A stretch of 64,000 nt of DNA, taken from an uncultured Roseburia sp. (lineage in GTDB: Bacteria; Bacillota; Clostridia; Lachnospirales; Lachnospiraceae). Location of the stretch: NCBI GenBank assembly GCA_945787015.1, contig CALZGM010000006.1, positions 1 to 64,000 of the forward strand. The letters are read 5' to 3'. Below, piece after piece: positions 9,230 to 56,091 of the stretch (positions within the stretch are counted from its first letter, which is position 1; each line of letters opens with the position of its first letter). Made by a program: the position numbers and the translations under genes. The notes under the pieces are model-generated. The model had not been told where the DNA came from. It saw only the letters and a list, made by a program, of their open reading frames with translations, and did not search any database.

Positions 9230-10384
9230 CTATCTCCTTGTATATTTTTGTAACCTTGGAATCACTTCCTGCATCACGCTTAATGCATAATCAATTTCTT
9301 CTTCTGTCGTATTTACACAAAAGCTGAAACGTATCGTGGAATCCAATAAATTTTTCTTTAATCCAATCGCAGTAAGCGTCGCACTGACAGATGGTTTATT
9401 GGAAGAACATGCACTTCCGGCTGACACATAAATGCCTCTGTCTTCTAAGGTGTGAAGCATTACCTCACTCCGCACGCCCTCGATGCTGACACTGACAATC
9501 TGCGGAGCTGAATCACGGCCGGTTTTCCCGTTCACCGTTACTCCGTCGATTTTTTGTACCCCTTCTACAAAGTGTTGCTTCAATGCATATAAGTGGTCAA
9601 TTTTCTCATCAAAATCTTCATAGATTTCCGCTGCTGCTTCTGCCAAAGCTGCTACACCCGGTACATTTTCTGTTCCGGAACGCATTCCCTTCTGCTGCCC
9701 GCCTCCATAAATCAGCGGTTTTACTTTTACTTTATCGCGGATAAATAAAAAACCGGTTCCTTTCGGTGCATGGATTTTATGACCGCTGACAGATAATAAA
9801 TCAATACCCAGTTTTTTCGGATAAATCCGATATTTTCCATACGCCTGAATCGCATCCACATGAACAAGGGTATTTGGATTCTTCGCTTTAATTACTTTTA
9901 CCGCCTCTTCAATCGGCTCTACCGCACCGATTTCGTTATTCACCATCATGAGCGATACTAAAATTGTCTCATCTGTTACTGCTTCCTTTAATTCTTCTAA
10001 CGAAATAATACCATTCGAATCTACTTTCAAGTAAGTGACGTTAAATCCCAGTTCCTCTAAATAAGCGGTTGTCGCAGATACGGACGCATGTTCAATTGCT
10101 GTTGTAATAATGTGGTTTCCCGCACGCTTATTTGCAAGCGCCGTTCCTATCAGAGCCATATTATTAGACTCTGTGCCGCCGGAAGTAAATACCAGTTCCT
10201 TTTCCTCTATTTTTAAAGTTTTTGCAATTTTTTCTTTTGCTTCCTTGATATATTTTTCTGCTTCAACACCTTTTAAATGTAAAGAAGACGGATTACCATA
10301 ATCCTCCGTCAGAAGCTTTACCATCATATCTGTTGCCCGTTTACTGCATCTTGTTGTGGCAGAATTATCTAAATATGTTTCCAT
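9230..10384 (-). CDS. Cysteine desulfurase, NifZ/NifS-type partner of ThiI
   Basis: PLP-dependent class V aminotransferase fold: METYLDNSATT at the start, SGGTESNN, the PLP lysine in SGHKIHAPKGTG, and the catalytic cysteine in SAGSACSSN. It abstracts sulfur from cysteine and hands it to ThiI encoded immediately downstream. I place the start at the ATG at 10384 (METYLDNS), which has GGAGG 11 bases upstream; the in-frame ATG at 10414 lacks a ribosome binding site. That gives 384 residues. Confidence 0.92.
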   Translation of the reverse strand: METYLDNSATTRCSKRATDMMVKLLTEDYGNPSSLHLKGVEAEKYIKEAKEKIAKTLKIEEKELVFTSGGTESNNMALIGTALANKRAGNHIITTAIEHASVSATTAYLEELGFNVTYLKVDSNGIISLEELKEAVTDETILVSLMMVNNEIGAVEPIEEAVKVIKAKNPNTLVHVDAIQAYGKYRIYPKKLGIDLLSVSGHKIHAPKGTGFLFIRDKVKVKPLIYGGGQQKGMRSGTENVPGVAALAEAAAEIYEDFDEKIDHLYALKQHFVEGVQKIDGVTVNGKTGRDSAPQIVSVSIEGVRSEVMLHTLEDRGIYVSAGSACSSNKPSVSATLTAIGLKKNLLDSTIRFSFCVNTTEEEIDYALSVMQEVIPRLQKYTRR

Positions 10385-10421
10385 ATTTTTATATGCCTCC
10401 ATCATACGCTCCATTCTATCG

Positions 10422-11156
10422 CTACTTTTCTAACTGATAAATCAGCATGGATAAAGCAGCAAGTCCTGCTGTCTCTGTTCTTAAAATTCGATTTCCCAGT
10501 GAAATCAGATGTGCCCCTTCCTGCACCAATTCCACTTCAGAAGGATCAAAACCTCCCTCCGGTCCGATTAAAATTCCAATCGTCTGTCCCGGACCAATGG
10601 CTGATATCACTTCTCTGGTAGCCTGCATTCCCCGTTCATTCTCATAGGGAACCAAAACCACATCCAGTTCCTTCGCCATTTCTACTGCTGCCTTATAGGG
10701 CATTGGCATTTGAACTTGCGGTATCAGGCTTCTTTTTGACTGCTTTGCCGCACTCTTTGCAATCTCCTGCCAGCGCGAAATCTTTGATGCAGCTTTTTTA
10801 TCATCCAGCTTTACAACACAATTTTTCATTGCAACCGGAATGACTTCATATACTCCGAGTTCTACTGCCTTTTGAATGATAAGCTCCATCTTATCACTTT
10901 TTGGCAAACCCTGGAATAAATAAATCTTATTTGGAAGCTCTGTATTCTCCTCTAATTCTTCTATCACATCTGCTCGCACAAAGTTGTCCGTAATTTCAGC
11001 TACACTGCAATAAAAGTTTCTACCACTGTTACTGCTGATGCGGATTTTCTCACCACACTTCATACGGAGCACATTTTTGATATGATTGACATCACTGCCC
11101 TCGATTACTACATTTGCCTCTGATATCTGAGCATCTTCTACAAAAAACTGATACAT
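10422..11156 (-). CDS. rsmE: 16S rRNA m3U1498 methyltransferase RsmE
   Basis: About 244 residues of SPOUT fold with the trefoil-knot motifs GILIGPEGGFDPSEVE and LGNRILRTETAGLAAL. N-terminal PUA-like part starts MYQFFVEDAQI. It methylates N3 of U1498 in assembled 30S subunits. The start at 11156 follows AGAAGGTG; the upstream in-frame ATG at 11189 lies inside the prmA coding end. prmA and rsmE are adjacent, as in most Bacillota. Confidence 0.93.
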   Translation of the reverse strand: MYQFFVEDAQISEANVVIEGSDVNHIKNVLRMKCGEKIRISSNSGRNFYCSVAEITDNFVRADVIEELEENTELPNKIYLFQGLPKSDKMELIIQKAVELGVYEVIPVAMKNCVVKLDDKKAASKISRWQEIAKSAAKQSKRSLIPQVQMPMPYKAAVEMAKELDVVLVPYENERGMQATREVISAIGPGQTIGILIGPEGGFDPSEVELVQEGAHLISLGNRILRTETAGLAALSMLIYQLEK

Positions 11157-48422: not shown

Positions 48423-48505
48423 GCCGGCGTGTCGGAATGGCAGACGATGCAGACTCAAAATCTGTTGTGGGTAACCACGTGTGGGTTCAAGTCCCACTGC
48501 CGGCA
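48423..48505 (+). tRNA. tRNA-Leu (anticodon CAA)
   Basis: 83 nt class II tRNA: acceptor GCCGGCG/TGCCGGC (one G-T pair), anticodon loop CTCAAAA with CAA, long variable arm TGG-GTAA-CCA, T-loop GTGGGTTCAAGTCCCAC. Discriminator A at 48505; CCA is not encoded. Its own promoter is not obvious. Confidence 0.95.
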
Positions 48506-48510
48506 TTAAA

Positions 48511-48550
48511 AAACCAGTAATTTCAAGGGTTCTTGAATTACTGGTTTTTT
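48511..48550 (+). terminator. Terminator after tRNA-Leu
   Basis: AACCAGTAATT...CAAG/CTTG...AATTACTGGTT followed by TTTTT. Also usable on the opposite strand for the 33-residue gene, since an A-run precedes it. Confidence 0.9.
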
Positions 48551-48568
48551 ATTGTTTTTAAATTTTTT

Positions 48569-48670
48569 CTAGTCATTCATGTAGTCTCTGTAATCATCTT
48601 CGTTTGCAAATAACATATACTGTCCGTCAACATATCCCATATAACCTGCGTCAATTACATATCCCTTCAT
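48569..48670 (-). CDS. 33-residue small protein, unrecognised
   Basis: Reads MKGYVIDAGYMGYVDGQYML then FANEDDYRDYMND and stop. The ATG at 48670 has a strong AAAGGAGA ribosome binding site eight bases upstream, a possible TATACT -10 box lies at 48726-48721, and a terminator follows. The composition is striking: seven tyrosines, three YM pairs, acidic C-terminus, no membrane segment. Sits between tRNA-Leu and the Nmad3-like gene. The signals make it a likely real gene; function unknown. Confidence 0.7.
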   Translation of the reverse strand: MKGYVIDAGYMGYVDGQYMLFANEDDYRDYMND

Positions 48671-48834
48671 ATTTGCTATCTCCTTTTATCAAAACTGTTT
48701 GCTGTTCTTTTGATAATTGGAGTATAGGTGATAAAGTGTACGATATGTTGGACTTTTTGTGCGGTAATGTGTTAACGTGTTAAATCATCCCCCTAAAAAT
48801 GAATTTTAAATTTTTAAAGCAAATTTTCAAACTC
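48671..48834. other. AT-rich gap after the Nmad3-like gene
   Basis: Contains a TTAACACGTTAAC-like dyad near 48770-48782 (GTGTTAACGTGTTAA on the plus strand) and the promoter region of the small protein. No clear terminator for the Nmad3-like gene is visible. Confidence 0.4.
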
Positions 48835-49671
48835 TTAAAACATACTTTTTGCCCAAGCTACAGTTGTTTCATTATCGGCAAGAACTATTTCCTGCCAAAT
48901 TCCTGAATAATAAATACCTTCCCCCTTTTTAGCCGAATTTTTTCTGGTTGTATTTACTAAATTATTCCATTGGTATGCATCTTCATATTTCCAAGTGGCT
49001 TTCGCTTTTCCTTCCATTGTTAATACACGTTTTTTGTCGTAATCGAAAATACCACATCCCGGCATTTCTGGTGCAAATGTCAATTTATCTTTTGCAAGGT
49101 AAATGGTATTATTCGATTCCTTATTTCTCTCATCGCAGGAATGTGGATGCCATTTAAGCTTTCTAATCTCCTCCGGATTACAAACAACCTTACCTACCTG
49201 CAAATATCCCCATATTGCCTGGATAGGTCTCCCATAATAAGCATCATTGTCATCACTTCTTTTTTTGACATATTGATAAACTCCAGCATCATTCTTAATA
49301 ACATGTCTGAAATTGCCAAAGAAAAGAAACAAATCTCCCTCATCCACTTCACAATTTTTTAGATATCCTGCTGCTTGATTTATTTGTCCAAACGCAGGAC
49401 ACCAATCCTTAACAGACTCTCTTCTCCTATTTGAAACAAGATCAGGATCTAGATGACAATACTCTGAATTTTTCTTTGAATCATAACCTAAATCATGTAA
49501 TATCTTATCAAGTCCAATCCCATCACATATCAATTCTTCATACCTAATCAAATCCTTTTTCTCATCTTTAGCTGGAATGGGAAATGATAACATAATTCGG
49601 TTGTCAATAATTGGACTTAATATCCCACCATTTGCACTGTCAAAACCTTTTCTACTTAAAATTACTTTCAT
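48835..49671 (-). CDS. Nmad3-like putative nucleotide-modification protein
   Basis: 278 residues. MKVILSRKGFDSANGGILSPI and the later DLFLFFGNFRHV, IQAIWGYLQVGKVV and GIFDYDKKRVLT blocks resemble the Nucleotide modification associated domain 3 family, which is found in phages and defence-type loci and is predicted to act on modified bases. The SRKGFDSxNGG start is the family hallmark. The ATG overlaps the stop of the PARG-like gene (ATGA), so the pair is translationally coupled. No nucleotide-binding loop or TM. Biochemical activity is not established to my knowledge. Confidence 0.65.
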   Translation of the reverse strand: MKVILSRKGFDSANGGILSPIIDNRIMLSFPIPAKDEKKDLIRYEELICDGIGLDKILHDLGYDSKKNSEYCHLDPDLVSNRRRESVKDWCPAFGQINQAAGYLKNCEVDEGDLFLFFGNFRHVIKNDAGVYQYVKKRSDDNDAYYGRPIQAIWGYLQVGKVVCNPEEIRKLKWHPHSCDERNKESNNTIYLAKDKLTFAPEMPGCGIFDYDKKRVLTMEGKAKATWKYEDAYQWNNLVNTTRKNSAKKGEGIYYSGIWQEIVLADNETTVAWAKSMF

Positions 49672-51089
49672 TTGTTTTCCTTTCTTCGTATAACCTTAAA
49701 TTTGAGTTTGTTTTTGCTTTGAGTTTTCTTGAATTCAACAAAATTCAAATTCGTATACGCAAGAAAATCCTCTCCTTCACGCAGAGTAATCAATATTTTA
49801 GCCAAATCATTTCCCAATATGTCTGTGCGATATTGCACTGCCCCATCATATAAATCAGTTGCAAATTGAACGATACCATTATCAACTAGCAAGTTCACAT
49901 ACTCCATGACGACCTCAATATTTTCTTCCGTTCCATTATCAACCATTCCAACATCAAGTATCGATCCATCGAATGACATCACTTGACAATGCATAGGAAC
50001 TATATTTGTACCATCATCTAATAATTCACCATCCTTTTCGTCCTCACATCCATCATAGTCAAGTTTCGGAATTATAACTGCCATAGTTAAAATCTCATCT
50101 TTTTCAAACAGCTCTGCTTCAAATGGTAATCCATCTACTGTAATTCCTTTGATATATCCAACGTTAATATCTGTTACTCCTTCTGTATGATTACAAACCG
50201 GATAATCATATTCGGTCACATAGTACCCTTCGGATTTTTCATCCATATCTGTATCCATCAGAAATACATCCGGACAACCGACTTGCGCTTTATCCTGAAA
50301 AACTTCCTTAAAAAATTCGATTTTGTTTTCGTCTCCCAAAATAGCAAATACAACTTTTTCAAAGAATTTATGAAAACCATCTTCACCAAAGAATAAATCA
50401 TAAAAATAAGTAGCTACTCTTTTTGCATCATTACCGAACGCTCCGCAACCCCAAGCTCCCAAAACAAGATTGCTATATCCCCTTCTTGCAGCTAAAAATA
50501 GCATTTTTCTCAATCGCTCCATCATAACTTCATCCAAAACATCCTGCGATATCTTCGATGCCGCTCCACACTTATTTGGTGCCGGAACAGTAACAACAGA
50601 TGTCCAAAATGGCATTTCCAACAACTCACCTGTAAAACTTCTGTATACATACACGCTTGGACTTATCAACATGTAATCCGAATCACACGGACTTTTATGA
50701 GTGTTATTATAATTGTACATCTCTTTTGCTTTATGACTCGAAATCGACTTATATAATGTACTACATCTGCATAGCGATTCTTCCTGTGCCCTAGCTCCAG
50801 TCAAAAAACCTCCGCCAGGTGTATGTGCATTTGCAAAATTCATCACTAGCGCTCTGTCCAAGCCACCAGCAGCTTCAAAGGAATCTGCATTCACAATATA
50901 AAAAGACGCCCCTTCGGTTCCACAAAAAGATTGTTCAAAAAATTCATCTACATCATTCTCAATATCCTGCAAATGCTCTGGCGAATATACTTCAACATCT
51001 GCACATTCATAATATCCGCTCTTTTTTATGAAATCTTCTGTAAACTTCATTGTTTCTTTTGATATTGCAATTAAATCCCCTCTACTCAT
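49668..51089 (-). CDS. Microbial PARG-like protein (TIGR02452/DUF2263) with extra C-terminal domain
   Basis: 473 residues from ATG 51089 (preceded by GGGAGG). Residues about 1-265 are the macro-fold poly(ADP-ribose) glycohydrolase type: MNFANAHTPGGGFLTGARA then QEESL, i.e. GGG-x7-QEE (GGG at about 92-94, catalytic Glu at 103-104), and VLGAWGCGAFGND. Family members remove ADP-ribose. Residues 280-473 (GYIKGITVDGLPFEAELF, MAVIIPKLDYDGCED) are unrecognised and very acidic. Coupled to the Nmad3-like gene by a 4-bp overlap; together they suggest reversal or handling of ADP-ribosylated nucleic acid or protein. Confidence 0.8.
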   Translation of the reverse strand: MSRGDLIAISKETMKFTEDFIKKSGYYECADVEVYSPEHLQDIENDVDEFFEQSFCGTEGASFYIVNADSFEAAGGLDRALVMNFANAHTPGGGFLTGARAQEESLCRCSTLYKSISSHKAKEMYNYNNTHKSPCDSDYMLISPSVYVYRSFTGELLEMPFWTSVVTVPAPNKCGAASKISQDVLDEVMMERLRKMLFLAARRGYSNLVLGAWGCGAFGNDAKRVATYFYDLFFGEDGFHKFFEKVVFAILGDENKIEFFKEVFQDKAQVGCPDVFLMDTDMDEKSEGYYVTEYDYPVCNHTEGVTDINVGYIKGITVDGLPFEAELFEKDEILTMAVIIPKLDYDGCEDEKDGELLDDGTNIVPMHCQVMSFDGSILDVGMVDNGTEENIEVVMEYVNLLVDNGIVQFATDLYDGAVQYRTDILGNDLAKILITLREGEDFLAYTNLNFVEFKKTQSKNKLKFKVIRRKENK

Positions 51090-51207
51090 TTTTATGTCCT
51101 CCCATGCTCCAAAAACAGATTCGTGCATCTTGCTAATTCCTATTTACCGAGGTATCATATTTAAGAGAGGTCCTCTGCTAGATAGGCGGGGGCTCTCTTT
51201 CATATCG

Positions 51208-51450
51208 CTACACATTCTCCAAATAATTTACTTTCTTCCCATGTGCCTTCGCATAGGCAATTTCCGATTTTGGAATTGGTCCACCTGTTGCTCTTGATAA
51301 ATAACCACATTTCCTGCATGATACTTCAAAGCTTCTCGGTTTATCAGAAAATCTATACGAGATTTTCCCCTCACAATTCGGGCAGAATATATTTTCTATT
51401 TCAGTTTTCGTGCCATCGTACAAAATATCTTCCAGATCATACCATGTCAT
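51208..51450 (-). CDS. Small zinc-ribbon protein
   Basis: 80 residues with CPNC (about 23-26) and CRKC (about 45-48), a four-cysteine zinc ribbon, and the tail LSRATGGPIPKSEIAYAKAHGKKVNYLENV. Good GAAGGGA ribosome binding site. 118 bp upstream of the PARG-like gene on the same strand, with an AAGAGAG/CTCTCTT hairpin between, so it may or may not share a transcript. Could bind nucleic acid; function unknown. Confidence 0.7.
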   Translation of the reverse strand: MTWYDLEDILYDGTKTEIENIFCPNCEGKISYRFSDKPRSFEVSCRKCGYLSRATGGPIPKSEIAYAKAHGKKVNYLENV

Positions 51451-51508
51451 AGTCTATCCCTTCTTTTTAACCCTTTACCAAAACTGAACATTCTTTCGTC
51501 CAATAATA

Positions 51509-51538
51509 TTACCATTTTCTCTCACTATATGGTATACT
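51509..51538 (+). promoter_or_regulatory. Promoter for the candidate small RNA
   Basis: TTACCA (51509-51514), 18-bp spacer, TATACT (51533-51538). Predicted start about 51545, exactly where the hairpin begins. Confidence 0.5.
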
Positions 51539-51544
51539 AGATTT

Positions 51545-51620
51545 AGAAGTATTGATTTTGGTGCGAGGCTACTATTCTTAGTAGAAATCTCGTTTGTACC
51601 ATCAATACTTCTATTTTTTA
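51545..51620 (+). ncRNA. Candidate structured small RNA
   Basis: AGAAGTATTGAT (51545-51556) pairs perfectly with ATCAATACTTCT (51601-51612); inside are GGT/ACC, GAG/CTC and CTACT-ATTCTT-AGTAG stems, then TATTTTTTA. The whole predicted transcript folds on itself and ends at a U-run. There is no plus-strand gene upstream for which it could be a terminator. About 75 nt. Function unknown. Confidence 0.55.
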
Positions 51621-51695
51621 TTTATTGTTCCTTACAAGGTTCTCAAACTCAAATCGAGGTAACAAATAGCCTTCTCGGGTAAAGTGTAACGTGTT

Positions 51696-53717
51696 TCAAA
51701 GTTTTTCAAAATGTTGGTAGTCCTTGCTATTGATCCAATTTCCACCCCATTCAAATCCATGCTGAATAAACAATTGATAACATAAATCCTCCTCATCAAT
51801 TGCATATGGGTTATCTGCGTTTCGATCCGCATAGGGGGCTGAACCCTCAGGTTGCACCATTGTCTCGCCATTTCTGGTAAATACATACGGATTGTAAAAA
51901 GGATTGATGTCAATTGCCTTTCCATAGGAGTGGTTTGACAGACGATTCGTGCCGTAGACTACCCGATAGTTGAAACAGGAAGTGTTGTTGTCCTCCATGG
52001 ATGCTTCATCATCCGCACCATACTCATCCACCAGACGAATCTTCTCAATAGGATACTTCTGTAAATATAGTTCCTCAAATATCTCCACCAAATCCAATGC
52101 AATATCCTGATGGCAGATAATCTCGCCTTCTGTCACTTCTCCGTTAAAATCATAGTGCAAAACATGCACATAGCGCAACTTATCGTAAGAAATTTGCACA
52201 TTCTCATCATTTGCCGGATAGGAAAATCCGGTAATTTTTATTTTTAATTCTTCATCCAAGGGACGCACGTAAAAATTCTCTTCCAAAGAAATATCCTCTG
52301 TCATGGTTTGTGCAGCCAGCTCCGTAGTACTCGTTTCTTCTTGTTGTGTTGTACGTTGTCCTAACTGCTGTCCCTCTTGTTCTATCTTCGCCTTGTTCTG
52401 CATTTTCAATAAAAAGATACCTCCAATTCCCCAAATCAAAATGCCCGCCAACACGAAACTCATCCACAAAATTGCTCTTCGCCTTAGCAATTTTCTCTTC
52501 CAATACTGCGTCAGCAAAACGATAAGAGAAAGCAGGAGTATGATTCCAAATACAATGTAGCAACTCTGCAAAGCAAAAGAACCACCAAGTGAGCTTTCCC
52601 CGGAAGTCATGGCACCTTCTGTTCCCGTATCTTTTACCTCGTTTTTCACCAACGGTATCTTATCAATATCGATACCCTCACTATCTGTATACAAATCATA
52701 ATTGTTCAGCACCCGAATCACTAACGTCCCCTTACCGTCCTTTGGGATGGGGATATCAAATATGATTGTCTTAGCGTCCTCCGGCCAAAGGCGTCTGGAA
52801 GTCATTGTCGCCCCTCCGTCCGTGCTGTACATATAATACATCATTTTGCTGTCCGATTCCATAGCAGAAACCACCGCATGAATCACACCATTTTCCTCAT
52901 CTCTTCGCAAACTGTCCACCAGCAAATACTCAGGTCCGGTGGCATCGGGCTTTTGTACAGTATCCGGAACCGGCGTAGGGGAAAAATCAGCATTGCTATA
53001 ATCCACTCCAAGTTCCCTGGAAGACAGTCCAAAATACTGTGCTACCGAAGTGGCATCTAAAATCCCATACTTTGTCAACCATTCCCCATTATCCAGATAG
53101 GGTGCATCTGCCGCGTGATCCATATGACAGTGCTCGATGATGCAGGAAGGAATCTCTCGTTCTGTGGAATGCCGGATAATTCCATAGTAGTCCTCACCTT
53201 TTTTCCCAATTCTGGTTTTGATTCCCCGGTTGGCAAGTCCAAGTTCCGCGAGATTACGATTGCATATTTTTGCAAAATCATATCCTTTTGCATAATTGGA
53301 GCCAAAAGCAGAAATCCAGCATTCTGTTCCATATAATTCATGGTATTCCGACATGTTAAAATGGAGGCTGTATAAAAAATCAGCCCCCACTTTCTTGGCA
53401 AAATCCGCCCGCTCCTCTAAAGTCATATCCACATCTGAGTCTCGGGTCAGATAAACGGTAATCCCCTCATATTTTTCCAGTTCTGTTTTCATAGCTTCCG
53501 CTACTATAAGCGTCATTTCTTTTTCCAGGTAGACGTCGGTTTTTCCTCCCTCATTTTCTCCGCCGTGGCCTGGGTCAATAACAACTACTACATTGTCTGC
53601 ACGCACCTGTTCTAAAGAATCAAACATGCATAACCCAAAACCCAAACCGGCAATTCCTATAGCCAGACCTTTTCGCATCTTTTTCCATATTGGGTTTCCT
53701 ACAATGGTCTTCTTCAT
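51696..53717 (-). CDS. Membrane-anchored amidase plus M15 peptidase
   Basis: 673 residues. Signal/TM at about 17-33; Amidase_3 domain 44-225 with VIDPGHGGENEGG (zinc H51), E65, SLHFN (H119) and CIIEHCH (catalytic E195); a linker and sandwich-like stretch; two TMs near 375-395 and 408-430 flanking a short cytoplasmic loop KRKLLRRR; then an M15 D,D-peptidase-type domain with NHSYGKAIDINPF and the final HFEKL. The TM pair puts both catalytic domains outside. Cleaves the amide linking MurNAc to the peptide, and probably the peptide itself. Start at 53717 without close neighbours. Confidence 0.88.
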   Translation of the reverse strand: MKKTIVGNPIWKKMRKGLAIGIAGLGFGLCMFDSLEQVRADNVVVVIDPGHGGENEGGKTDVYLEKEMTLIVAEAMKTELEKYEGITVYLTRDSDVDMTLEERADFAKKVGADFLYSLHFNMSEYHELYGTECWISAFGSNYAKGYDFAKICNRNLAELGLANRGIKTRIGKKGEDYYGIIRHSTEREIPSCIIEHCHMDHAADAPYLDNGEWLTKYGILDATSVAQYFGLSSRELGVDYSNADFSPTPVPDTVQKPDATGPEYLLVDSLRRDEENGVIHAVVSAMESDSKMMYYMYSTDGGATMTSRRLWPEDAKTIIFDIPIPKDGKGTLVIRVLNNYDLYTDSEGIDIDKIPLVKNEVKDTGTEGAMTSGESSLGGSFALQSCYIVFGIILLLSLIVLLTQYWKRKLLRRRAILWMSFVLAGILIWGIGGIFLLKMQNKAKIEQEGQQLGQRTTQQEETSTTELAAQTMTEDISLEENFYVRPLDEELKIKITGFSYPANDENVQISYDKLRYVHVLHYDFNGEVTEGEIICHQDIALDLVEIFEELYLQKYPIEKIRLVDEYGADDEASMEDNNTSCFNYRVVYGTNRLSNHSYGKAIDINPFYNPYVFTRNGETMVQPEGSAPYADRNADNPYAIDEEDLCYQLFIQHGFEWGGNWINSKDYQHFEKL

Positions 53718-53821
53718 TCTAACTTACTCCATTTCTCGTGCACATTTTTTCTTCAGCAAAATATGTTAAGAAAATAGTATCATATTACGACCATTTAATA
53801 CAAGAGATACCTTCCTCTTTC

Positions 53822-54145
53822 TTAGAAAGAAACCACGAGCTGCATCTTAAACTGTTCCTCGCCATATACTGCATGTGGAATATCTTTCGGCATGATCAAA
53901 GTCTGCCCTGCTTCCAAATAAAAAACTTCATCTGCTACTGTAAATCTTCCCCTACCTTCCAACACAGTAACCATGGCATCACCGCCTGCAGCATGTGTTG
54001 AAATTTCTTCACCCTTATCAAAAGAGAAAATGGTCATGCTTACTGCATCGTTTTGTACTAATGTTTTAGATACGACCTGTCCCTTTTGGTATTCCACAAG
54101 ATCCTTTAACTCAAGTTTTACTTTTTTCTCGATGTTTTTGTACAT
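53822..54145 (-). CDS. Cupin-domain protein
   Basis: 107 residues with a single cupin: FSFDKGEEISTHAAGGDAMVTVLEGRGRFTV and YLEAGQTLIMPKDIPHAVYGEEQFKM. Third gene of the ferredoxin cluster, 49 bp downstream. In anaerobes such cupins follow hcp/ferredoxin-type nitrosative or oxidative-stress genes; substrate unknown. Confidence 0.88.
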   Translation of the reverse strand: MYKNIEKKVKLELKDLVEYQKGQVVSKTLVQNDAVSMTIFSFDKGEEISTHAAGGDAMVTVLEGRGRFTVADEVFYLEAGQTLIMPKDIPHAVYGEEQFKMQLVVSF

Positions 54146-54194
54146 TCTATGAATCTCCCTTCAATGATATATTTTGCATGTAACATCTTAAAAT

Positions 54195-54920
54195 TTATAC
54201 ATCCAGGATTTCTCCCTCAATGCTGATTGTTACTACCTGCCACGGAATAAATTTGCCACTGTTCTGAAGTGCCTTTTTTGCAGCCATTTCCAAACCACCG
54301 CAACAAGGAACCTCCATTCTCACAATCGTCACGCCTGTGATATCATTATTTGCCAAAATTGCGGTCAATTTTTCACTATAATCCACTGCATCTAACTTCG
54401 GACAACCAATCAATGTCACTTTTCCTTTGATAAAATCCTGATGAAAAGATGCATAAGCATAAGCGGTACAATCCGCCGCAATCAAAAGCTTTGCTCCCTG
54501 GAAATATGGTGCCTGAATCGGTGCCAACTTAATTTCCACCGGCCAGTTGCGAAGCTTGGATATCTGTTTAACAACTGCAGTCTCATCTATGTGCTCTGCT
54601 TCCTCTCGGTTTCGATTCATCTCACGCATCCTAGTTCCCGGGCATCCCATATGTGGAGTCTGCATGCCTGACTTCTGCTCTTTCTCTTGTTTTGCCTTTA
54701 AAACAGCTTCCTCATCATAAGCCGGTGCCTCTCGCTCCTCAAACGTAATAGCACCCACCGGGCATCCTGGAAGACAGTCTCCTAAACCGTCACAAAAATG
54801 CTCGCGTACCAGCTTTGCTTTTCCGTCTATTATTTCAATTGCGCCTTCATGACAGGCTGTTGCACAAATACCGCAACCATTGCACTTTTCTTCATCAATA
54901 TGAATTATCTTTCTTACCAT
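54195..54920 (-). CDS. FrdX-like double 4Fe-4S ferredoxin with C-terminal domain
   Basis: 241 residues: N-terminal two-cluster ferredoxin (CNGCGICATACHEG and CDGLGDCLPGCPVG), a linker with an MGCPG motif, and a C-terminal domain LIAADCTAYAYASFHQDFIKGKVTLIGCPKLDAV ... VPCCGG with further conserved cysteines. This matches the ferredoxin-like partner (frdX) of Crp/Fnr HcpR regulons that respond to nitric oxide. Overlaps the upstream gene by 7 bp. No hcp gene lies here. Confidence 0.82.
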   Translation of the reverse strand: MVRKIIHIDEEKCNGCGICATACHEGAIEIIDGKAKLVREHFCDGLGDCLPGCPVGAITFEEREAPAYDEEAVLKAKQEKEQKSGMQTPHMGCPGTRMREMNRNREEAEHIDETAVVKQISKLRNWPVEIKLAPIQAPYFQGAKLLIAADCTAYAYASFHQDFIKGKVTLIGCPKLDAVDYSEKLTAILANNDITGVTIVRMEVPCCGGLEMAAKKALQNSGKFIPWQVVTISIEGEILDV

Positions 54921-55330
54921 TCGTTCATTTCCTCCAACAGTTTCTGATAGTATTCCTCAATGAGTTCATATCCCAGGAAGGATATCGCCTTATAAAATCC
55001 ATCGGGAAGTTCTTTTTTCTCACCGTTTAGGTAACCTTCTGCAATCTCATACAGTTTTTGGGCAATCTGCTGTTTAAAACTACGTATGCTTTCCTCTTCC
55101 TGCTCCCATCTACAGATTTCAAAATCCGATGTATTTCCACATGGGTTCATACAGGTCTCGCAATTTGGCGATATAACAAATTTTTCTTTATGGATTGCAT
55201 CCACTGCCTCATCCGAATCCGGCAAAAGAAGTGCCTCACTTACAATCCGATCCGTGTTTGGTGTCTTACCGTTATTTTGTATCGCTCCTGCAAGCCCAAT
55301 CAGGGCACTGATGATTCTCTTATTTTTCAT
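54914..55330 (-). CDS. Unrecognised cysteine-motif protein of the ferredoxin operon
   Basis: 138 residues with NCETCMNPCGNTSDFEICRWE, a CxxCxxxC group plus a fourth cysteine, in an otherwise helical protein. Could bind an Fe-S cluster or zinc. It is the first gene of the operon behind the shared Crp/Fnr site and translationally coupled to the ferredoxin, so probably a redox partner of it. I do not recognise the family with certainty. Confidence 0.75.
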   Translation of the reverse strand: MKNKRIISALIGLAGAIQNNGKTPNTDRIVSEALLLPDSDEAVDAIHKEKFVISPNCETCMNPCGNTSDFEICRWEQEEESIRSFKQQIAQKLYEIAEGYLNGEKKELPDGFYKAISFLGYELIEEYYQKLLEEMNEW

Positions 55331-55351
55331 AAACTCCCTCGCTTGGCATCA

Positions 55352-55381
55352 TTGATATTTACTTTACGTTTGGATTATACT
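55352..55381 (+). promoter_or_regulatory. Overlapping divergent promoters of crp-type gene and ferredoxin operon
   Basis: Plus strand TTGATA (55352-55357), 18-bp spacer, TATACT (55376-55381). Minus strand TATAAT at 55379-55374 overlaps it, without a -35 box. The plus promoter can work alone; the minus promoter needs an activator. Confidence 0.6.
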
Positions 55382-55400
55382 AAAATAAATCCGGAATTTA

Positions 55401-55416
55401 TGTTGGAATTACAACA
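55401..55416. promoter_or_regulatory. Candidate Crp/Fnr operator TGTTG-N6-CAACA
   Basis: TGTTGGAATTACAACA, a 5-6-5 perfect dyad with the spacing of the Crp/Fnr family. Its centre is 41.5 bp upstream of the predicted minus-strand start (class II activator position) and about 20 bp downstream of the predicted plus-strand start (repressor position). Confidence 0.65.
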
Positions 55417-55428
55417 AAAGGAGTTTTT

Positions 55429-56091
55429 ATGGGAAAATATGATTCTATTCTAAGAAAAAACGCACTTTTTGAAGGCATTGAAGAACAGCACATTCCTGCC
55501 GTACTTAAGTGCCTGGGTGCGCAGATGAAAAAATTTGGAAAAGATGAATTTATTTGTCAAGAAGGTGATAAAGCCGGTTTTATTGGGATTGTCTTAGAAG
55601 GTCGGATTCAGATTTTTCATGATGACTATGACGGCAATCGCAATCTAACCGCAAGCTTTGATGCAGGAGCAATGTTTGCCGAGGCTTTTGCATGCGCCAA
55701 AGTTCCTGCCATGCCGGTCGACATTCTTTCATATACAGAATCTGTCATTCTGTTTATTGATGTGAATCAAATATTAAAGCACAATGGAGAAAGCTGCCAT
55801 TTTCACGAGCAAATCGCCGGAAATCTATTGAAAATCATGGCACGCAAAAATATGCTTCTCAACCAAAAGTTGAATTACATTTCTCATAAAACCACCGCTG
55901 AAAAGCTCATGGCCTTCCTAAATGATCAGGCAAAACTCCATCATTCACCGGAATTCACAATTCCTTATGATAGACAGAGTCTAGCTGATTATCTTGGTGT
56001 AGAACGCAGTGCGATGTCTGCGGAACTTAGCAAGCTTCAGAAAAAAGGTGTGCTTATCACGAAGAAGAATTATTTTAAACTACTGGGGTAA
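55429..56091 (+). CDS. Crp/Fnr-family regulator, HcpR-like
   Basis: 220 residues: cyclic-nucleotide-type beta-roll (FGKDEFICQEGDKAGFIGIVLEGRIQIFHDD, ASFDAGAMFAEAFAC) and C-terminal helix-turn-helix (IPYDRQSLADYLGVERSAMSAELSKLQKKGVLITKKNYFKLLG). No N-terminal Fnr cysteine cluster, so if it senses NO or redox it does so otherwise (heme, as in HcpR, is possible). Divergent from the ferredoxin operon with the operator between. Ends overlapping the convergent membrane protein by 17 bp. Confidence 0.88.
   Translation: MGKYDSILRKNALFEGIEEQHIPAVLKCLGAQMKKFGKDEFICQEGDKAGFIGIVLEGRIQIFHDDYDGNRNLTASFDAGAMFAEAFACAKVPAMPVDILSYTESVILFIDVNQILKHNGESCHFHEQIAGNLLKIMARKNMLLNQKLNYISHKTTAEKLMAFLNDQAKLHHSPEFTIPYDRQSLADYLGVERSAMSAELSKLQKKGVLITKKNYFKLLG

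Follow-up and report, generated by a model that had tools for sequence, protein, structure and literature searches.

Genes and features of the locus

The window considered here is a stretch of 64,000 nucleotides (nt) from an uncultured Roseburia sp. of the Lachnospiraceae (assembly GCA_945787015.1, contig CALZGM010000006.1, positions 1 to 64,000 of the forward strand). On its minus strand lie a small zinc-ribbon gene, a gene of the microbial PARG type and an Nmad3 gene, in this order, within an accessory insert that is referred to below as the cassette (Table 1). The cassette is a new combination of known families, and it is real and accessory. The original prediction, which was made from the sequence alone, had proposed a nucleotide-modification or ADP-ribosylation module beside a tRNA gene. 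On re-check its genes, strand and coordinates were borne out, including the zinc-ribbon gene that precedes the pair and the ATGA in which the stop of the PARG gene and the start of the Nmad3 gene overlap (49668–49671). The overlap suggests that PARG and Nmad3 are made together.

Table 1. Coordinates of the cassette and its neighbours in the window
Feature	Position	Strand	Basis
Zinc-ribbon gene, 80 residues	51208..51450	-	Open reading frame with two CxxC pairs (CPNC...CRKC)
Microbial-type PARG with C-terminal extension, 473 residues	49668..51089	-	PF10021, TIGR02452, solved PARG 5zdf
PARG motif GGG-FLTGARA-QEE, residues 92-104 of the 473-residue reading	50778..50816	-	Translation
PARG C-terminal extension, 183 residues used as query	49668..50219	-	Matches in 4/397 family genomes, own included
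Nmad3, 278 residues, EVE/ASCH-like model fold	48835..49671	-	PF18754; ATGA overlap with PARG
Accessory insert (cassette), 2,945 nt, GC 35.8%	48757..51701		Empty site in same-genus genome G021
Strong hairpin within the insert, upstream of its genes	51543..51613		z -6.4 minus strand, -6.2 plus strand
33-residue open reading frame	48569..48670	-	Outside the cassette
tRNA-Leu(caa)	48423..48505	+	Outside the cassette

Proteins of the cassette

The PARG-like call made earlier, with its GGG-x7-QEE motif, is supported by matches to PF10021 (E 2.6e-29, 102.9 bits, cut-off 23.5) and TIGR02452 (E 1.3e-56, 192.1 bits, cut-off 50). Eight distinct solved PARG sequences are matched as well, with 5zdf as the best (E 2.2e-36); the best-matching of them are those of Deinococcus radiodurans. 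The microbial PARG signature has a spacing of six to eight residues, GGG-x(6-8)-QEE, and the cassette protein carries it intact. Its residues G92–G94, Q102, E103 and E104 are invariant across 12 aligned PARGs. The ATG start of the gene is preceded by GGAGG, and a longer alternative of the reading frame begins at 51128.

The protein ends in a C-terminal extension of ~200 residues, which the original prediction did not mention. None of the six best homologues from the order covers it, and only one of 11 aligned relatives (L131) extends over this part. Elsewhere the extension is found as a separate small open reading frame near a WYL-type gene in G588 (L194, G588:C33) and G589 (L193, G589:C91), where Pfam backs the WYL assignment for G588, and fused to another PARG in G372, the relative L131 just mentioned. 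No transferase match was obtained for PARG or Nmad3 in Pfam or NCBIfam, so the suggestion that one of the two proteins marks nucleic acid found no support.

Relatives of the cassette PARG occur in diverse settings. Among the closest, the gene in L125 (G110:C3) adjoins NADAR and NrtR-type regulator genes, and in L198 (G171:C2) two PARG genes are surrounded by Band_7 and DUF4291 genes; the literature searched holds no mention of DUF4291. Seven further relatives (L138–L142, L147, L148) adjoin genes that, recognised by eye, are presumably sirtuin-like. The Roseburia genome itself has a second, shorter microbial PARG gene (G000:C2:123358-124176; L001, L037) that lies away from Nmad3.

The Nmad3 call is likewise supported, by a match to PF18754 over residues 2–245 (E 1.5e-53, 182.4 bits, cut-off 27). 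In the structure model the best matches are to EVE/ASCH-type folds, including the m5C-DNA complexes of McrB (6p0g) and THYN1 (5j3e), and the modelled fold is PUA-like. Such a fold, which may already have been noted for Nmad domains in earlier literature, is consistent with reading modified nucleotides and thus fits the earlier suggestion that the domain works on them. Nmad3 is not filed here as a member of the EVE family, because neither EVE nor ASCH gives a Pfam match at E <= 1; further, a search of PDB sequences with the Nmad3 profile returned no solved relative at E <= 5. Across nine sequences R7, K8, D11, C72, H73, D75, D77, H175, H177, Q260 and E261 are invariant, and the invariant motifs are LSRKG, CHxDPD, FGQ and HPH. 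From the EVE/ASCH domains of PH1033 (1wmm, 2hd9), the McrB N-domain (6p0f, 6p0g) and THYN1 (5j3e), Nmad3 differs in having no sequence match to them, nearly double the length and invariant motifs of its own. In Merdibacter massiliensis (L094, around 10001–10824) an Nmad3 gene is apparently split over several reading frames.

The zinc-ribbon protein has no Pfam match over the cut-off, and its zinc-ribbon matches are sub-threshold only. Over residues 57–80 it is similar to the tail of proteins of the CGSTRF type (L023, E 7e-4; also L019), a likeness that is short and may be due to chance. Genes of the CGSTRF type occur in four Nmad3 loci (L019, L023, L088, L098).

The cassette and its empty site

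The accessory nature of the pair is demonstrated by an empty site in G021, a genome of the same genus. There, the equivalent of 48441–48756 (96.8% identical) is followed by 4 nt and then by the equivalent of 51702–55559 (96.1%), so that 2,945 nt of the window are replaced by 4 nt. The absent stretch holds the zinc-ribbon, PARG and Nmad3 genes, so that two close genomes differ by the cassette as a whole. Since the empty site keeps the rest, the cassette comprises these three genes only. The insert is poorer in GC than the 5 kb on either side (38.8% and 41.6%) and ranks in the bottom 2% among 611 windows of equal size. No integrase was seen in it, its open reading frames being those of the three genes, and the search for terminal repeats gave short two-copy matches only and nothing convincing.

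The 33-residue gene and the tRNA described as following the pair are both present. The tRNA lies on the opposite strand, convergent to the cassette genes, and has a strong hairpin with a T-run on its 3' side. The G021 contig retains the 33-residue open reading frame and whatever part of the tRNA it includes. Because both occur at the empty site, they are older neighbours rather than parts of the module, and the proposed link of the pair to the tRNA does not hold. The tRNA was also rejected as an integration site: the insert begins ~250 nt past it, beyond the 33-residue frame, and no integrase is present.

The hairpin inside the insert is followed by a T-rich stretch on the plus strand. Rfam offers no match for it and the genome contains it only once; it could be a terminator, a leader or a recombination relic. 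The tRNA is the only known RNA family above the gathering score in the locus. None of the four locus proteins was matched by a PADLOC-DB model at E <= 1. A neighbouring protein (51696–53717) combines Amidase_3 and Peptidase_M15_4 domains in one chain.

Distribution of PARG and Nmad3

Nmad3 is sparsely distributed. It was found in two of 60 relatives (the genome itself and G004 of the same genus) and, with the own genome counted, in 13 of 392 genomes of the order; at E 1e-10, 52 of these 392 give a PARG match, the own genome again among them. Both families co-occur in four further genomes of the order (G102, G327, G377, G412), where PARG and Nmad3 are always on separate contigs. In phages there was no tblastn match to Nmad3, and viral contigs bearing it were found with an alignment query (four) where a single-protein query had found none. 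Among plasmids Nmad3 is present on two large replicons, and 27 plasmid records match PARG, none of them across >80% of its length.

For neighbourhood comparisons, 97 Nmad3 loci were assembled from a first set of 13, the best 80 of 400 Nmad3 relatives among genome contigs and the four viral contigs; after removal of the duplicates L038, L057 and L074, 94 distinct loci of 3.1 to 20.9 kb were left. The PARG side was sampled by a six-frame scan of ~1.5 kb on each side of PARG in 39 loci of other genomes (L031–L036, L123–L151, L185–L188). In this sample L034 and L035 are below the family cut-off, and L186 is the PARG of L044.

Among the neighbours in the Nmad3 loci is Nmad2 (PF18753), which adjoins Nmad3 in 36 of the 97 loci (34 of the 94 distinct ones, two scans combined; Pfam applied to four examples), and is directly upstream on the same strand in all 34 cases of the first neighbourhood scan. 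WYL-type regulators lie within five genes of Nmad3 in 11 loci, a count that includes Pfam for one of them and rests on greedy calls of open reading frames, which pick wrong frames in GC-rich loci. PADLOC was applied to the neighbours in four Nmad3 loci picked for their look of a defence island, and defence matches were obtained in all four: IetAS and type IV restriction in L028, PglX in L023, HEC-06/Orf5/SspE-like in L044, and NERD-helicase and kinase models in L019.

ADP-ribose hydrolases beside Nmad3

In other genomes, genes for ADP-ribose hydrolases of other families are over-represented in Nmad3 loci. A six-frame scan of the 94 loci (1.447 Mb) identified eight macro, four ADP-ribosylglycohydrolase and one PARG gene in 11 loci. 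From the genome-wide density of such genes in 40 Nmad3-bearing genomes (58 macro, 31 ADP-ribosylglycohydrolase and four PARG genes in 114.4 Mb), 1.18 would be expected, so that the 13 observed represent an ~11-fold enrichment (P ~4e-10). When the similar loci L068, L069 and L082 are counted once, 11 hydrolase genes remain (P ~5e-8). A weak ADP-ribosylglycohydrolase match in L101 (E 2.9e-5) is excluded from the 13. The 40 background genomes were hand-picked, not random, to include the hit loci known at that time, except L101, and the expected number is raised because of this choice.

Some of these hydrolase genes are closely coupled to Nmad3. In L068, L069 and L082, macro, Nmad2 and Nmad3 genes stand in line on one strand, with Nmad2 overlapping Nmad3 (spans taken from the first ATG, identities from Pfam) and with 12 nt, 0.3 kb and 2 nt, respectively, between macro and Nmad2. 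In L023, Nmad3, a macro gene 25 nt further on and an ADP-ribosylglycohydrolase gene share one strand, with Mrr, BrxL and PglZ alongside. The Nmad3 locus L019 also has a macro gene, and L098 has ADP-ribosylglycohydrolase and CGSTRF-type genes on the strand opposite to Nmad3.

Proposed function and alternatives

The reading that is tentatively preferred here is that of a horizontally gained, accessory, writer-less module of the immunity type, directed against nucleic-acid ADP-ribosylation. Its target would be marks made by an enzyme of foreign origin, for instance an antibacterial ADP-ribosyltransferase of a competitor or a writer encoded by a phage. PARG would remove the ADP-ribose from protein, from DNA ends or from RNA, in the last case most likely where it is 2'-O-linked or sits on a phosphate end. 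Nmad3, as a protein of the PUA superfamily with an EVE/ASCH-like model fold, would bind the altered nucleotide or the modified nucleic acid and place or license the hydrolase as its physical partner. The zinc-ribbon protein probably binds nucleic acid in an accessory role. Provided that Nmad3 can read altered nucleotides, the removal of foreign nucleic-acid ADP-ribose marks would be the simplest reading of a joint role. The more general proposition would be that Nmad3, as a reader of the PUA superfamily, recognises RNA or DNA nucleotides that bear ADP-ribose (or are similarly bulky), and that across bacteria it combines with exchangeable hydrolases (PARG, macro or ADP-ribosylglycohydrolase) into a writer-less module for repair and immunity against marks of competitors or phages, the cassette being the PARG version; in this breadth the idea is doubtful.

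Several observations weigh against a joint module. To date no other genome has shown the exact PARG-Nmad3 operon: PARG adjoins Nmad3 in none of the 94 distinct other Nmad3 loci, and no Nmad3 lies near PARG in any of the 39 PARG loci within the ~1.5 kb scanned. The original prediction had named such a lack of adjacent homologues in other genomes as evidence against it. In L044, PARG lies 2.3 kb downstream of Nmad3, near a GmrSD-type gene (Pfam) and another gene that matches similar PADLOC models. Further, only three of the 40 Nmad3-bearing genomes contain PARG, and part of the hydrolase enrichment may reflect shared genomic islands, as the expected number is not island-matched. The main rival draws on the same lack of a second pair and is nearly as likely as the joint module. 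It holds that two unrelated accessory genes were joined in one gained cassette and act alone, PARG in general immunity to ADP-ribosylation and Nmad3 in the role that it usually has with modified nucleotides. The settings of Nmad3 indeed vary widely, from a phage-type integrase (L017, with similar genes in L022, L024 and L025) to the BREX genes of L023 and the IetAS and type IV restriction genes of L028. However, mere passengers would not readily account for the ATGA overlap, the enrichment of ADP-ribose hydrolases near Nmad3 and the tight gene rows in L023, L068 and L082.

It is rather improbable that the cassette is an effector-type defence. In such a system Nmad3 would recognise modified phage nucleic acid or act on it, and PARG, in common with the macro and ADP-ribosylglycohydrolase enzymes elsewhere, would be a protective or signal-processing partner that, for example, clears ADP-ribose made in the response. 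Some ASCH proteins act on RNA, and the model fold of Nmad3 would be compatible with such a role, as would its many invariant polar residues, which are perhaps more than a plain reader needs, and the defence neighbourhoods of Nmad3 loci. Similarly, DefensePredictor lists a nucleotide modification associated domain among its predicted, unvalidated defence domains, although the available part of that report does not specify which Nmad (PMC13092281). Against this stand the lack of a recognised nuclease motif and the lack of a writer match in the cassette. Far less probable is a remnant of the DarT/DarG type, in which only the antitoxin part of a former ADP-ribosylating toxin-antitoxin system is left after loss of the transferase. 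A macrodomain-superfamily hydrolase in an accessory operon would fit, and the accessible text of PMC13036486 describes bacterial toxin-antitoxin pairs that ADP-ribosylate DNA reversibly. However, no DarT (PF14487) turned up at E <= 0.001 anywhere in the genome, in a search that did not cover other writer families, which removes support from the earlier analogy to DarT/DarG, and Pfam and NCBIfam give no transferase in the cassette, transferases beside the other Nmad3 loci not having been searched for. Salvage of NAD or ADP-ribose, with PARG recycling ADP-ribose or modified NAD-derived nucleotides and Nmad3 binding the free nucleotide, is likewise very unlikely: the NADAR and NrtR-type neighbours of the close PARG relative in L125 speak for it, but the cassette has no recognised salvage enzyme and is accessory.

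Relation to known systems and significance

DarT/DarG resembles the cassette as a small operon with a macrodomain-superfamily hydrolase, but the cassette has a hydrolase of another family, no transferase match, and Nmad3 and a zinc ribbon in addition. The macro-Nmad2-Nmad3 rows of L068, L069 and L082 and the BREX-associated L023 share with it a macro-superfamily protein directly linked to Nmad3; they differ in having a PF01661 macro gene instead of PARG and, in the first three, an Nmad2 gene that the cassette lacks. The PARGs DRB0099 (D. radiodurans) and SCO0909 (Streptomyces coelicolor) are alike in belonging to the DUF2263/microbial PARG family, in their accessory distribution and in a candidate immunity role; in the part of PMC11833690 available no coupling to an Nmad gene is described for them, whereas the cassette PARG has a C-terminal extension, an overlapping Nmad3 gene and a predicted activity. 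According to the same part of that paper, bacterial PARGs reverse the 2'-OH ADP-ribosylation that RhsP2 places on RNA and can shield E. coli against RhsP2; horizontal transfer is frequent among them, conservation from one related species to the next is often lacking, and their physiological roles are called unknown (Lu et al. 2025, PMC11833690). ADP-ribosylated uracil is a less likely substrate, because SCO0909 and DRB0099 are reported as inactive on it in the accessible text of PMC13036486.

In the literature searched, Nmad domains have only a predicted role, and Nmad3 itself appears solely in an unrelated mention (mango). A survey of EVE contexts mentions no macro domain, ADP-ribose or nucleotide modification (PMC7641849), the available part of a BREX survey contains no ADP-ribosylation term, macro domain or PARG (PMC12839542), and "EVE domain" together with "ADP-ribos" was found only in an unrelated chromatin-remodelling context. 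The EVE/ASCH-like model fold of Nmad3 and the enrichment of hydrolases beside it raise a testable question: whether a reader for nucleic-acid ADP-ribosylation exists. The interest of the cassette lies in this reader-plus-eraser idea, which has statistical support from other loci, rather than in the spread of the PARG-Nmad3 pair itself.

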